A stretch of 64,000 nucleotides of DNA from Butyricimonas sp. Marseille-P3923 (GTDB lineage: Bacteria; Bacteroidota; Bacteroidia; Bacteroidales; Marinifilaceae). The notes beneath the pieces are model-generated. The model made no database searches, had not been told where the DNA came from, and was given only the letters and a program-made list of their open reading frames with translations. The first letter of the stretch is position 1. Each line of letters opens with the position of its first letter. Below, one piece after another: positions 2,966-35,733 of the stretch. The DNA lies in NCBI RefSeq assembly GCF_900184685.1, contig NZ_FXXL01000007.1:1984001-2048000 (forward strand), read 5' to 3'. Both the position numbers and the translations under genes were made by a program.

Positions 2966-4084
2966 TTATTCTATAGGAATGGCATCGTTTTTCACCATTT
3001 TCTTAGCCCGGAAATAACTGCGGTAATTACTGAATCCGGCATGGATAACAATATCCAACGAAGATATTTTTTGCTTTCTTTGTACGGCCTCAGACTGTAA
3101 TCTTTCTACTTCCTTCAGCCGGTAATTATTAACGAAACGGTTGAAATTCATGCCATATTCTCGGTTGATGAAAGCCGATATATATGTCCTGTTGGAAATA
3201 AGGTCTTTGGCCATGTCGGTTATTTTGAATTCCGGATTTAGATAAGGCTTCTTATTCTCCAAATACTCCTCTACCCGCTGCCGCCCCAGTTGCGCATAAT
3301 TTCCCGAGGCGGTCATTTCCTTTTCTTTGACGGTAATAGGTTCGATAATCACGTAATTCTCCGAAAGGATATTCAGGCACAGCACGATATGGGTAAAGAC
3401 CGCCGGCAATGTTGTAAATGCCCAGATTCCCCCCACCTTATTGAATAATTCGATGCCCAATATTAATCCGGCTATCGGCAAGGTTTGCAGCACGACTCTA
3501 AAAAGGATAATAAAGGACAACCAATCCAACGACATCCGGTAGATATCAGCGGAATAATCGGTTACCTGACGTTTATACGACTTTATGCGGAGCAAGCTCA
3601 ACCCGGAGTATAAAACGCTCAACACAATACAGACGACAAACGTGATGTCGATGATCGCGGTTGTCAAACTTGTATCGTTATCATAAATAGCTGTCCATCG
3701 TTGCCGGAACGGCACTATAAATGCGACCACGTAGATAGTGACGGTCAAACACGACGGAAGGATGAAATGATACGCGGGGAAACGTTTCCGTTCGCCTGTT
3801 CCCGTAATAATATAGGTGATCAAGTACAAGAATATGGGAATAAAGCTGAACGAGGAAAAGAAAACAGGCAGGTATGCAATGAAAGCGTCACGGGCAATGG
3901 AATGCATAACCAGTCCGCTCCAGTACAGCATGATCAGACAGTATACAGTGAGTATGCTGTAATGTATCTTCCGGTTGACCGTATTGGAAGAGCGGGTTAT
4001 GTCGAGCAAAATCATGATCAAGCTGACCGCAGCGCTTACCACGGGTATTGAAAAAACTATTGCACGTCCGATATCTTGATTCAT
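2966..4084 (-). CDS. Membrane-anchored AraC-family transcriptional regulator (copy 1)
   Basis: A 372-residue protein with about seven hydrophobic segments in the first 245 residues (for example 10-30, 41-65, 68-96, 107-126, 143-166, 187-212, 221-245). A C-terminal AraC-type double helix-turn-helix covers about 260-370 (FKITDMAKDLISNRTYISAF and SSLDIVIHAGFSNYRSYFRA). This is a one-component regulator that senses in the membrane and binds DNA from the inner face. It lies 14 bp downstream of a second gene of the same build and may be cotranscribed with it. Both point away from the fimbrial operon, so control of fimbriae is plausible but unproven. Confidence 0.8.
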   Translation of the reverse strand: MNQDIGRAIVFSIPVVSAAVSLIMILLDITRSSNTVNRKIHYSILTVYCLIMLYWSGLVMHSIARDAFIAYLPVFFSSFSFIPIFLYLITYIITGTGERKRFPAYHFILPSCLTVTIYVVAFIVPFRQRWTAIYDNDTSLTTAIIDITFVVCIVLSVLYSGLSLLRIKSYKRQVTDYSADIYRMSLDWLSFIILFRVVLQTLPIAGLILGIELFNKVGGIWAFTTLPAVFTHIVLCLNILSENYVIIEPITVKEKEMTASGNYAQLGRQRVEEYLENKKPYLNPEFKITDMAKDLISNRTYISAFINREYGMNFNRFVNNYRLKEVERLQSEAVQRKQKISSLDIVIHAGFSNYRSYFRAKKMVKNDAIPIE

Positions 4085-4098
4085 CCTTTTCTATTTAT

Positions 4099-5271
4099 TT
4101 ATGGTTTTTGGTCAGATTGTTCTTTATATGTATTCTCCAATTGGATCGCACGCTGAAAATGTCTGGAGTCTTTGAATCCCGCCATGACCATTACCTGATA
4201 CGGATTTTTACGTTCGTTCGAAGGCTGCTCTATCAGAATCTGGTACTCCTTGATTCGCCACTGGTTCAAGTAACGCCTGAAATTCATGCCATAAGTTTGA
4301 TTGATAAAATTGGACATGATAGTACGGTTTACCCCCATCACCTCAGCCATATCAATCAGTTTGAAATCAGGATCGAGATATGGTTTTTGTTGAGACAAAT
4401 AGTTTTCGAATACCCTCTTGTTCAATTGTCCGCGTGCGTTGTCCGGCGCAAGGCGCTGTTTGGCACTCAAACCGTTGTTTCCTGTTTTCTTTTCGTTGGT
4501 CGGTAACAAATCGAATGTTTTGTAAGAGAGATATTGTCTACGGATAACTTGGTATACAAGCAATATTTCCTGTACCATAATGCATAACGCGTTCAGCCGG
4601 ATAAGCCATTGGCTTGTGCCGACCAATATAGGCAAAAACGCGATCAGCAGTATCGCGATGGAAAGTATGAAAAACACGATGAGCCAACGCGATGATTTTA
4701 TACTGAGATATTTTCGATCCGTGTCGGTCTTTTGAAGTACAGTCTGTTTATAATACCACAACAATAACAGGACGGTCGGAACGATATAGACAACCGCCAT
4801 GACAAACCGCAATAAAGAGCTGAATATAAAAAACTCCATATATCGCTCGAACAATGACAATCCGGTAAAAATTTCTTCCCCGAGAGGCGATATTCGGACT
4901 GCCGCTATCAAGATAATTGCCAACGTGGGTACCGGCCAAAGGTAATTCAGCACGGGAATATTTCTTTTGCCCTCTAAATAGGTCAAGTAATAAACGATGT
5001 TATAGAACAATACGGGAATGTAGATATATGACAGGGCAAAAGGAATATCGACCGGAAGGAATATCGAATCGCCAGAGAGAGCATGCCACAAAACGGATGA
5101 CCACCATACGGCTATCAGAATACAATAAATACTCACTACCCGCCTTAATTTCCTTTCGGCAAGATTACGATAATTCAATAACAGTAATAAGGTAAAGACT
5201 GAACATATGGCCGAACAAAATATTGGTAAAATATAGGTTATCAAGTTGCTATATGTGACAAATGCTCCCAT
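4099..5271 (-). CDS. Membrane-anchored AraC-family transcriptional regulator (copy 2)
   Basis: A paralogue of the following gene: about seven transmembrane segments, then an AraC DNA-binding domain (DFKLIDMAEVMGVNRTIMSN, then VMVMAGFKDSRHFQRA). I start it at the ATG beginning MGAFVTYSNL, giving 390 residues. The frame extends upstream to an ATG at 5382, but those 37 residues are hydrophilic and lie over a TATCTTTG promoter element at 5380-5387. The shared phrases YGMNFxRxxNxxRxKE and QxKPYLxPxFKxxDMA show tandem duplication. It is divergent from the fimbrial cluster across a 410-bp gap. Confidence 0.78.
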   Translation of the reverse strand: MGAFVTYSNLITYILPIFCSAICSVFTLLLLLNYRNLAERKLRRVVSIYCILIAVWWSSVLWHALSGDSIFLPVDIPFALSYIYIPVLFYNIVYYLTYLEGKRNIPVLNYLWPVPTLAIILIAAVRISPLGEEIFTGLSLFERYMEFFIFSSLLRFVMAVVYIVPTVLLLLWYYKQTVLQKTDTDRKYLSIKSSRWLIVFFILSIAILLIAFLPILVGTSQWLIRLNALCIMVQEILLVYQVIRRQYLSYKTFDLLPTNEKKTGNNGLSAKQRLAPDNARGQLNKRVFENYLSQQKPYLDPDFKLIDMAEVMGVNRTIMSNFINQTYGMNFRRYLNQWRIKEYQILIEQPSNERKNPYQVMVMAGFKDSRHFQRAIQLENTYKEQSDQKP

Positions 5272-34074: not shown

Positions 34075-34962
34075 TCATTCTTCTCTTTTCAGCACCACCT
34101 GCAAACCTTTGGCATTTTTCTTCTTGACCTTCACCTTCTGCGGCAAATACCCCTCCTTAACAAACCAAAGTTGCCTACACCGTTTCAAGGGAAACTCAAA
34201 CTCTCCCTTATGCTTGACATAACACACGTGGATTTCTTTTTTACACCGTTTACGATAGATTTCAACCCCCAACAAAGGGATTCCATTCTCATCCACCACA
34301 CGCCCTTCTACCCGAAACGTTCCGTCTGCTTGTAAAGGCGATGCCCCCATGGTAACAACCGCCCCTGTTAAAACATACTTTTTATGGACACGCAAATAAT
34401 TATCTGATTCAATTTCATTCAATGCAATGACTTCAGTATTCAACACAACCCTCAAATCAGAAAACCCACACTTCGGCACCCAAACCTCTTTCGTTTCATA
34501 TCCCACGTATGAAATACATATCGGCAGCCTACCCGACACCCGTAATTCAAAACACCCATCTTTGTCACTACATGTACCCCTCGTTGTCCCCTTTTCCACG
34601 ATATGCGCACTCACCAACGGGTTCCCCACACTATCCGTCACCCGCCCTTTGACAACAATCTCCTCCTCTCCCACACAAACCTCATCCCGCACGCCAAGCA
34701 TCCCCTCACCCGCCACACATGCCGCCCGCGGAAGCCCCATCAATCCCACTGACAAACCCACTAACGAAACCACCTTCCCCGCCAAACGCCTAAGCTCCAA
34801 AGCTCGCATCAAGTAAAGCACCTCCTCCTCGCACTTGGGACAGGTACCCAAACAATCACCTTTATATTGACACTCCGAAACAATATACTCTATGTCATTC
34901 GCCTCCGCTATTTGTTTCCGAATTTCTTTCAAGATCCTACACGTTTGTTTTCCCCGGTTCAT
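34075..34962 (-). CDS. Cys-rich membrane protein with two carboxypeptidase-regulatory-like domains
   Basis: A 295-residue protein of unknown function. Residues 1-58 are a charged, probably cytoplasmic domain (CRILKEIRKQIAEANDIEY) with a knot of Cys at 31, 37, 41 and 44 (SECQYKGDCLGTCPKCEEE), spaced C-x5-C-x3-C-x2-C, fit for a metal or Fe-S site. A single membrane segment (about 61-80) follows. Two extracytoplasmic beta-sandwich modules resemble carboxypeptidase-regulatory domains (about 103-175, VKGRVTDSVGNPLVSAH; 217-290, VEGRVVDENGIPLLGVE). It starts 17 bp after a radical SAM gene, so that enzyme may act on it or serve it. A decayed copy of its 5' end lies beyond that enzyme gene. Confidence 0.8.
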   Translation of the reverse strand: MNRGKQTCRILKEIRKQIAEANDIEYIVSECQYKGDCLGTCPKCEEEVLYLMRALELRRLAGKVVSLVGLSVGLMGLPRAACVAGEGMLGVRDEVCVGEEEIVVKGRVTDSVGNPLVSAHIVEKGTTRGTCSDKDGCFELRVSGRLPICISYVGYETKEVWVPKCGFSDLRVVLNTEVIALNEIESDNYLRVHKKYVLTGAVVTMGASPLQADGTFRVEGRVVDENGIPLLGVEIYRKRCKKEIHVCYVKHKGEFEFPLKRCRQLWFVKEGYLPQKVKVKKKNAKGLQVVLKREE

Positions 34963-34979
34963 GATGTCTATCTATTATA

Positions 34980-35591
34980 TTAGGTAAAAAGGTCAAAATG
35001 TTTTATCCCCATCATCTCCAACTCCCGACAACTCTCCACCCTATCGTTATCGGTATTATAACCGGGGATAAGGGGCACTCGCACGAGCATGTCATTCGCC
35101 CTTCCCCGCTCCACCAGCAAACGGAGGTTACACACCACCGCCTCATTGTTTCTCCCCGTGTACCGCTTGTAAATGGCGGGATTCATATCCTTAATATCAA
35201 CAATGAAACGATCGACAACCGGTAGCAATTGTTCGACATGTTCTCGCTCCACGTTCAACGAAGTCTCCAACGACAACAACCAATCTTTCCCGCAAACCTT
35301 CCGAAATTGCCGGATAAATTCACTCTGCAAACACGGCTCCCCTCCCCCGAAAGTCACCCCTCCGCCAGTTGCTAAAAAATAAAGCGTATCCACCTTCACC
35401 TCGTCATATAACGCATTACAATCGTACCGTTTCCATCGCCTTCCCTTATCCCGAGATTGCGGATTCAAACAATACCGACAACGCAACGGGCAACCATGAA
35501 ACGCCACCAACGTGGAAACCCCTTCCCCATCCGTCTGCAAGCGGTGGCGTTCAATCCCTATAACTTTTGGTGCCAATCCCGAATTATCCAT
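34980..35591 (-). CDS. Radical SAM protein, activating-enzyme-like
   Basis: A 203-residue radical SAM enzyme. The Fe-S motif is C-x3-C-x2-C at Cys34, 38 and 41 (FHGCPLRCRYCLNPQ); GGGVTFGGGEPCLQ follows as the SAM-binding motif. RFIVDIKDMNPAIYKRYTGR and LVRVPLIPGYNTD match glycyl-radical-enzyme activases, but it is shorter than those (about 245-300) and lacks the extra ferredoxin insert, since no other Cys cluster is seen. No glycyl radical enzyme is nearby. Its partner is presumably the Cys-rich membrane protein just downstream; the reaction is unknown. Confidence 0.85.
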   Translation of the reverse strand: MDNSGLAPKVIGIERHRLQTDGEGVSTLVAFHGCPLRCRYCLNPQSRDKGRRWKRYDCNALYDEVKVDTLYFLATGGGVTFGGGEPCLQSEFIRQFRKVCGKDWLLSLETSLNVEREHVEQLLPVVDRFIVDIKDMNPAIYKRYTGRNNEAVVCNLRLLVERGRANDMLVRVPLIPGYNTDNDRVESCRELEMMGIKHFDLFT

Positions 35592-35622
35592 CCGTTATCA
35601 TATTTTATTTCTTCATTCACAT

Positions 35623-35733
35623 AAGTACCCAAGCAATCACCTTTATACTAGCACCTCGAAATGATATACTCACCGCTATTTGTTTCCAAATCTCTTTCAA
35701 GATTCTACACGTCTGTTTCCCCTGACTCACCAT
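35623..35733 (-). pseudogene. Decayed copy of the 5' end of the Cys-rich membrane protein gene
   Basis: From ATG at 35733 the minus strand encodes GKQTCRILKEIWKQIA, nearly identical to residues 4-19 of the Cys-rich protein (GKQTCRILKEIRKQIA). A deletion of about 10 bases then shifts the frame; the nucleotides continue to match (TATAAAGGTGATTG-like words) until the second Cys region, then stop. The frameshifted frame ends after about 38 codons. The live gene lies on the other side of the radical SAM gene, so the locus once held two copies or was rearranged between them. Confidence 0.78.

Follow-up and report, generated by a model that had tools for sequence, protein, structure and literature searches.

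What does a small radical SAM enzyme act on when its gene lies just ahead of a gene for a Cys-rich protein with a hydrophobic stretch? The question is raised by two neighbouring genes of Butyricimonas sp. Marseille-P3923, in a stretch of 64,000 nucleotides (the whole of which we call the window) from a genome of 5.3 Mb that is 99.99% complete. A preliminary description of the letters alone had placed a small activase-like radical SAM gene 17 bp before a membrane protein gene, and both open reading frames (ORFs) stand—on the minus strand the enzyme gene comes first (34980-35591, 203 aa; PF04055, E 5.2e-17) and, after 17 bp, the gene for a 295-aa protein follows (34075-34962). Our analysis points to the pair being part of an undescribed protein-modification system; by undescribed we mean that literature searches did not find it (no title or abstract start pointed to the head/enzyme pair) and that it has no Pfam or NCBIfam family. 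The features of the locus are:

34980..35591, minus strand: radical SAM protein of 203 aa with CPLRCRYC (CX3CX2C), like the activases of glycyl radical enzymes (GREs) and short at its C-terminal end
34789..34962, minus strand: the head, residues 1-58 of the 295-aa protein, a Cys-rich domain without a name and the apparent partner of the enzyme
34831..34872, minus strand: CQYKGDCLGTCPKC, residues 31-44, with four Cys invariant in 17 aligned heads
34711..34779, minus strand: hydrophobic, signal-peptide-like stretch, residues 62-84
34411..34653, minus strand: residues 104-184, the first CarboxypepD_reg-like sandwich, which resembles the NTE domain of SusC (9hfj)
34351..34377, minus strand: YVLTGAVVT, residues 196-204, the window's best match to a glycine motif (Ala for Asp/Glu)
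34093..34320, minus strand: second CarboxypepD_reg-like sandwich, residues ~215-290
35603..35727, minus strand: a second head, decayed (13-base alignment gap, in-frame stop) and lying upstream of the enzyme gene

The interval first proposed for the pair, 34075-35733, does hold both ORFs; the enzyme gene, however, begins at 35591, and 35603-35727 is the decayed copy, which covers the first part of the head and in which the helix and some of the Cys loop can still be recognised. No similar copy lies upstream of the enzyme gene in Butyricimonas synergistica (L009), the closest match among the named species records found, which agrees with the enzyme at 84% and the 295-aa protein at 69% over residues 1-294. 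Against this species dN/dS is ~0.11 for the enzyme (dN 0.093, dS 0.871), ~0.04 for the head (dN 0.052, dS 1.366), and ~0.15 for the tail, the part behind the head (dN 0.251, dS 1.675), so both window genes are under constraint. The two carboxypeptidase-regulatory sandwiches that had been read from the sequence are found by Pfam and seen again in the predicted model. TonB_C, present in several relatives, is absent from the window protein according to Pfam.

The head is a domain of ~58 residues at the N-terminus, with Cys at positions 8, 31, 37, 41, and 44; the last four form the C-x5-C-x3-C-x2-C pattern already noted, and Cys8 is a fifth that the earlier list lacked. Across 26 loci with a relative of the 295-aa protein the first ~77 residues are 65-89% identical to those of the window (the partial matches L025 and L034 are exceptions), and 16 heads are 64-89% identical to the window head. 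An alignment of 17 heads shows five Cys, G35, D36, G39, T40, and P42 without variation. The tails behind these conserved heads are unrelated and differ from protein to protein. In heads that are fused to the enzyme and have no tail, the spacing of the four Cys shifts from x5/x3/x2 to x4/x4/x2 and G-x-C-x2-C is kept; a shifted spacing with retained Cys is as expected of metal ligands, and the head is probably a metal-binding domain. Its model comprises a helix (2-21), the Cys loop, and a second helix (42-60), with block means of 59-78 over residues 1-60 and a pTM of 0.34 for the whole model.

Known families offer little that resembles the head. A profile search of the PDB gave nothing significant (best E 0.27), and Pfam and NCBIfam hold no family that describes it, returning weak and conflicting matches only—ScmF, a SPASM radical SAM protein, in NCBIfam (best E 0.02, 5 of 17 heads), and the PhnA zinc ribbon in Pfam (best E 0.014, 9 of 17). 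The SPASM profile of Pfam matched none of the 17 heads. PG0870_Nterm was tried as a family for the head and rejected: its best NCBIfam E-value was 0.0088, in 2 of the 17 heads, and a table in PMC1887533 lists PG0870 as a hypothetical protein. In a phylum-wide sample of 395 genomes two had a head match, that of the window and a second Bacteroidales genome; none lay outside this order, and the head is so far known only from it. At one locus (L048, 1501-1575 of G025:C44) the head is reduced to its first helix and the Cys loop is lost, with a hydrophobic stretch and a TonB_C-like part still behind it.

A hydrophobic stretch lies behind the head in 89 of 109 head proteins; the other 20 are too short, cut by an edge, soluble, or without such a stretch, and stand outside the count. 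The site after the stretch is lipobox-like in 48 of the 89 and AxA-like in 37 (85 in all), with neither in 4, in a set that includes a few cut copies of one gene and with an AxA pattern that is loose and comes without a chance expectation. The head thus stands where a signal peptide would have its n-region, and is unusually long for one; judged from these sequences, head proteins are more likely precursors with a signal peptide than resident single-span proteins, and the head is probably cut off on export. The window protein had been called a single-span membrane protein. It has the hydrophobic stretch, at residues 62-84, but this is placed like a signal peptide, as in the 85 of 89; since the protein is among the four without a strict site (it reads ...PRAACVAGEG), that description is doubtful rather than disproved. 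Tails include TonB_C, CarbopepD, and serpin domains (Pfam). Soluble heads are also found: a serpin/HIRAN protein, three short proteins of 79-88 aa, and proteins of 140 and 141 aa in L158 and L212. Two different soluble head proteins, in L150 and L151, have a HIRAN domain towards the C-terminus, with the serpin domain between in one of them.

The preliminary description had suggested looking for co-occurrence of the two families and had named rare adjacency of their homologues elsewhere as what would undo the pairing. In an order-wide sample of 295 genomes the 9 with a head, the window's own included, are the same 9 that hold the enzyme at more than 240 bits, a split set after seeing the gap between 247.3 bits and the next hit at 124.6. 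A sample of one family (198 genomes) has 51 with both, 4 with the head only, 2 with the enzyme only, and 141 with neither (Fisher p 6e-40), that is, 51 with both against 6 with one; the two enzyme-only genomes show an internal stop in one case and a contig edge in the other. Neighbours are the rule: a same-strand head lies within ~1.5 kb on either side in 42 of 49 enzyme-centred loci, a few places being counted twice, and one to three heads may be present, before or after the enzyme. Viewed from the head, the enzyme falls within the same locus in 14 of 26 head loci; the other 12 represent 11 genomes, 10 of which hold the enzyme, and the sole genome without it is a metagenome-assembled draft.

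Natural fusions and mobile copies add to this. In one genus of 9 species, 6 have the head, all as enzyme and head in a single frame without a tail, and no head was seen in the remaining 3. A 643-aa fusion in another family joins enzyme, head, glycine motifs, and HIRAN, and makes a seventh species with a fusion. Two IMG/VR contigs were found with the enzyme, and one of these (L212) carries the head too, as does, together with the enzyme, a 93-kb plasmid of Segatella copri, where two genes neighbouring the head match are annotated 'energy transducer TonB'. That head and enzyme are functional partners is supported by their co-occurrence, by adjacency on the same strand, and by natural fusions. 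The membrane protein had been named as the best candidate partner, and the partnership stands; the conserved partner, however, is the ~58-aa head and not the whole protein, because the tails are interchangeable.

Several loci hold further genes of note. On the viral contig L212, right behind the enzyme and the soluble head, a small lipoprotein-like ORF (4028-4375) has about five C-x-G-Y-G-Y-x-V-x-Y-T-x-R repeats. Soluble heads and the enzyme lie in L153, L154, and L155 between a DUF3800 gene (by Pfam in L155) and a very long repeat gene, Sel1/leucine-rich-looking by eye; mobilisation-like genes, again by eye, are nearby in L154 and L155. In L122, L124, L125, L126, L133, and L142, genes of 261, 329-335, and 453-455 aa stand between enzyme and head, as if cargo were entering the unit.

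The enzyme itself is close in build to the activase of pyruvate formate-lyase (PFL-AE). The model of the enzyme alone finds as its best PDB match (Foldseek) 3cb8, which is PFL-AE with a peptide, at a TM of 0.77 and 28% identity, and the sequence carries the CX3CX2C, DGxG, D-x-K-x-x-N, and R-x-P-x-I-P stretches, as PFL-AE does. The positions aligned to Asp16 and Arg166 of PFL-AE, which we take to be its peptide contacts, are invariant in the 13 rows of the enzyme alignment. At its C-terminal end the enzyme is ~40 residues shorter than PFL-AE, and it is just there that the fused heads begin; the window enzyme ends in ...FDLFT (34980-34999), most relatives in ...FTY plus a few residues, and L087 like the window. 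Radical_SAM and Fer4_12 are the only Pfam families over the cut-off. Among the 25 NCBIfam families listed for the enzyme (of 40 matched) none reaches its curated cut-off, the best of these being TIGR02494 at 147.2 bits against 174.35.

This likeness brings up GREs themselves as targets, and an unlinked GRE had been named early on as what might undo the pairing. Among 13 enzyme-bearing genomes searched with PF01228, four (that of the window, G290, G201, and G868) have no match, seven have matches at just 21-28 bits, and in two (G165 and G255) a PFL-type enzyme is clear. A single PF13597 (NrdD) gene is present in the window genome, with another, NrdG-like radical SAM gene ~100 bp behind it; G290 has neither PF01228 nor PF13597, yet holds enzyme and head side by side. 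Neither of the two searched families explains the enzyme, and a role as GRE activase is rejected, as regards these families, on their absence in some carriers and on the NrdD gene's own radical SAM neighbour. Both conditions named against the pairing, rare adjacency and an unlinked GRE, came out in its favour.

What the otherwise unrelated tails share is a repeated short motif, [LIV]-x-G-[DE]-[VI]. From 130 head-bearing frames, 115 tails were left after those of fewer than 20 residues were dropped, and 88 after removal of near-duplicates; in these, [LIVMFY]-x-G-[DE]-[VI] has 64 matches in 49 tails, against a mean of 9.5 and a maximum of 20 in 500 shuffles. The pattern was written after viewing the head loci up to L048 and L150-L155, and the other tails were scored separately: these 46 held-out tails, drawn from related genomes and not of independent descent, have 36 matches in 29 tails (mean 5.4, maximum 15 in 1000 shuffles). 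Motif density is 3.9 per 1000 residues in tails and 0.32 in other ORFs, a 12-fold difference for which the background is raw ORFs with out-of-frame ones included. In headed proteins the linkers before TonB_C have 27 matches in 3,106 residues (39 tails). A search for TonB_C gave 6 matches in 1,017 linker residues for headed ORFs (n=6) and none in 2,838 for headless ones (n=11), the latter a small control in which some ORFs are two reads of one gene (e.g., L184 and L192).

A refined weight matrix, built on the linkers so as to be clear of TonB_C's own GIQGRVVV segment and with raw ORFs again as background, finds 86 sites in 56 of the 88 tails, one to three in each, with the consensus L-x-G-E/D-V/I. 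Pro-Asp/Glu lies just downstream at 17 of 62 motif sites, where 4.6 are expected. Among short tails (34-112 residues, without the TonB_C signature) a slightly widened motif occurs in 9 of 13, for example as two copies in 47 residues. In an unguided pattern count L-x-G-[DE] ranks 14th (41 tails, 8.1 expected), below patterns that we take to come from homologous CarbopepD tails. The motif is not universal. It is absent in strict form from 39 of the 88 tails, some of which have variants (GMI, GEP) and others nothing clear; the window's best site, YVLTGAVVT, scores 13.1 with Ala for Asp/Glu, and the tail of Butyricimonas synergistica has no good site (best score 3.4). A tail with the motif is lacking in three short soluble heads and in the heads that one genus fuses to the enzyme, so that leading a substrate is not the head's sole role. 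The motif is also present in head proteins without a signal peptide, namely the serpin/HIRAN protein, the enzyme fusion, L158, and the viral-contig head L212.

The best match to 3cb8, the invariant equivalents of Asp16 and Arg166, and an enzyme shortened where fused heads follow are the grounds on which we propose a mechanism. The pair would belong, as a local unit, to a protein-modification system of Bacteroidales, in which the head may serve as a docking domain for a small radical SAM enzyme derived from GRE activases. Placed N-terminally on many proteins, mostly right before a signal peptide, the head would bring the still-cytoplasmic tail to the enzyme; the tail motif would enter the active site, and a hydrogen would be abstracted, most likely at the glycine, by analogy with pyruvate formate-lyase activase, which acts on a glycine of its target loop. 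The modified tail would then be exported, and signal peptidase I or II would remove the head. That the motif is the enzyme's substrate we infer from its enrichment. We consider the chances evenly balanced that the head docks tails to a GRE-activase-derived enzyme acting at the glycine motif. The fuller statement is more tentative and, in our judgement, short of even: a GRE-activase-lineage enzyme, free of GREs, would modify the glycine of [LIV]xG[DE][VI] in many proteins, both exported and cytoplasmic; a portable tag with the Cys cluster would mark these proteins, and where they are exported the tag would stand before the signal peptide and be lost during export.

The main rival gives the head another task. 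As an auxiliary metallocluster subunit, an electron donor or substrate-positioning part like SPASM or Twitch, it would serve an enzyme whose substrate is elsewhere, with tails that do no more than place the complex at the membrane. This would suit heads fused behind the enzyme, where PFL-AE has its further C-terminal part, as well as Cys retained with shifted spacing and the weak ScmF matches; the lack of a SPASM match in Pfam and a PhnA zinc ribbon that matched about as weakly speak against it, and it leaves unexplained both a motif common to unrelated tails and the several heads that often accompany one enzyme. We think it possible and less probable again, and it can be true at the same time as the docking reading.

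Alternatively, the glycine motif may be a binding motif that is recognised by, for example, the head or the enzyme, or by an envelope partner, with the enzyme doing something else. The motif includes no conserved Cys or aromatic partner and has the downstream Pro-Asp/Glu preference (17 of 62), as in linear interaction motifs; however, its presence in head proteins without a signal peptide makes an envelope partner unlikely, and the reading as a whole seems to us an unlikely one. The enzyme might instead modify the head itself, at a Cys or a neighbouring Gly, to form a cofactor or crosslink of radical origin that would remain in the cytoplasm. No other part is nearly as conserved as the head, G-x-C-x2-C is kept in the fused forms, and these have no other obvious substrate; against this, four Cys of variable spacing look like metal ligands, a head before a cleaved signal peptide would be discarded after export, and the tail motif is left unexplained. 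The Cys cluster had been put forward early as a possible target of modification, and this is now less likely, as the Cys survive in soluble and fused heads with shifted spacing, in the manner of metal ligands, and the tails carry a glycine motif of their own; head modification is, in our view, a shade less credible than a binding role for the motif. That the enzyme activates an unlinked GRE and lies beside the head gene by accident has its family resemblance and the clear PFL-type enzymes of G165 and G255 (2 of 13) in its favour, but the four carriers without PF01228, G290 without NrdD as well, the NrdG-like neighbour of the window's NrdD gene, and the co-occurrence of head and enzyme leave it very improbable.

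If the docking proposal is true, gut anaerobes have a tag-plus-enzyme system that is portable and modifies whole envelope proteins by radical chemistry, built from an activase family whose other known role is to make glycyl radicals. Proteins named 'energy transducer TonB' and 'radical SAM protein' in one annotated record would also find an explanation. The putative target motif is short and mutable, there are many natural candidate substrates, and some candidate tails have fewer than 50 residues, which puts the chemistry within direct reach of mass spectrometry.

Among known systems, the GRE activases (PFL-AE, PDB 3c8f/3cb8; TIGR02493/TIGR02494) share with the enzyme the fold, CX3CX2C, and the other three sequence stretches named above; unlike them, the enzyme has no GRE partner in several carriers, is ~40 residues shorter, is tied to the head, and falls below the curated cut-off of all 25 families listed (of 40 matched). 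TIGR04133/TIGR04134 are radical SAM and putative lipoprotein pairs of Bacteroidetes, and resemble the present pair in that a radical SAM gene has an exported partner; the phylum is shared too. The window tail matches TIGR04134 at 17.6 bits, below the cut-off of 39.8, and does so in its CarboxypepD-like part, outside the head; the 25 families listed (of 40 matched) for the enzyme do not include TIGR04133. Like SPASM auxiliary cluster domains, the head is Cys-rich and adjoins or is fused to a radical SAM domain, and its C-x5-C-x3-C spacing is, we presume, partly like that of SPASM; it differs in having no Pfam SPASM match (17 heads) and in being mostly on a separate protein.

Radical-SAM RiPP systems, such as sactipeptides and epipeptides, consist of a leader and core with a dedicated radical SAM enzyme. 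The logic proposed here is the same, with a conserved N-terminal part that may serve in recognition and a variable C-terminal part that holds repeated short candidate sites. RiPP mining in Bacteroidales is treated in PMC10352776. In contrast to RiPPs, the enzyme has no PqqD domain that Pfam could find, the putative recognition part is a Cys-rich domain that mostly stands before a signal peptide, and many of the putative substrates are full-size folded proteins—TonB_C, CarbopepD, and serpin among them.
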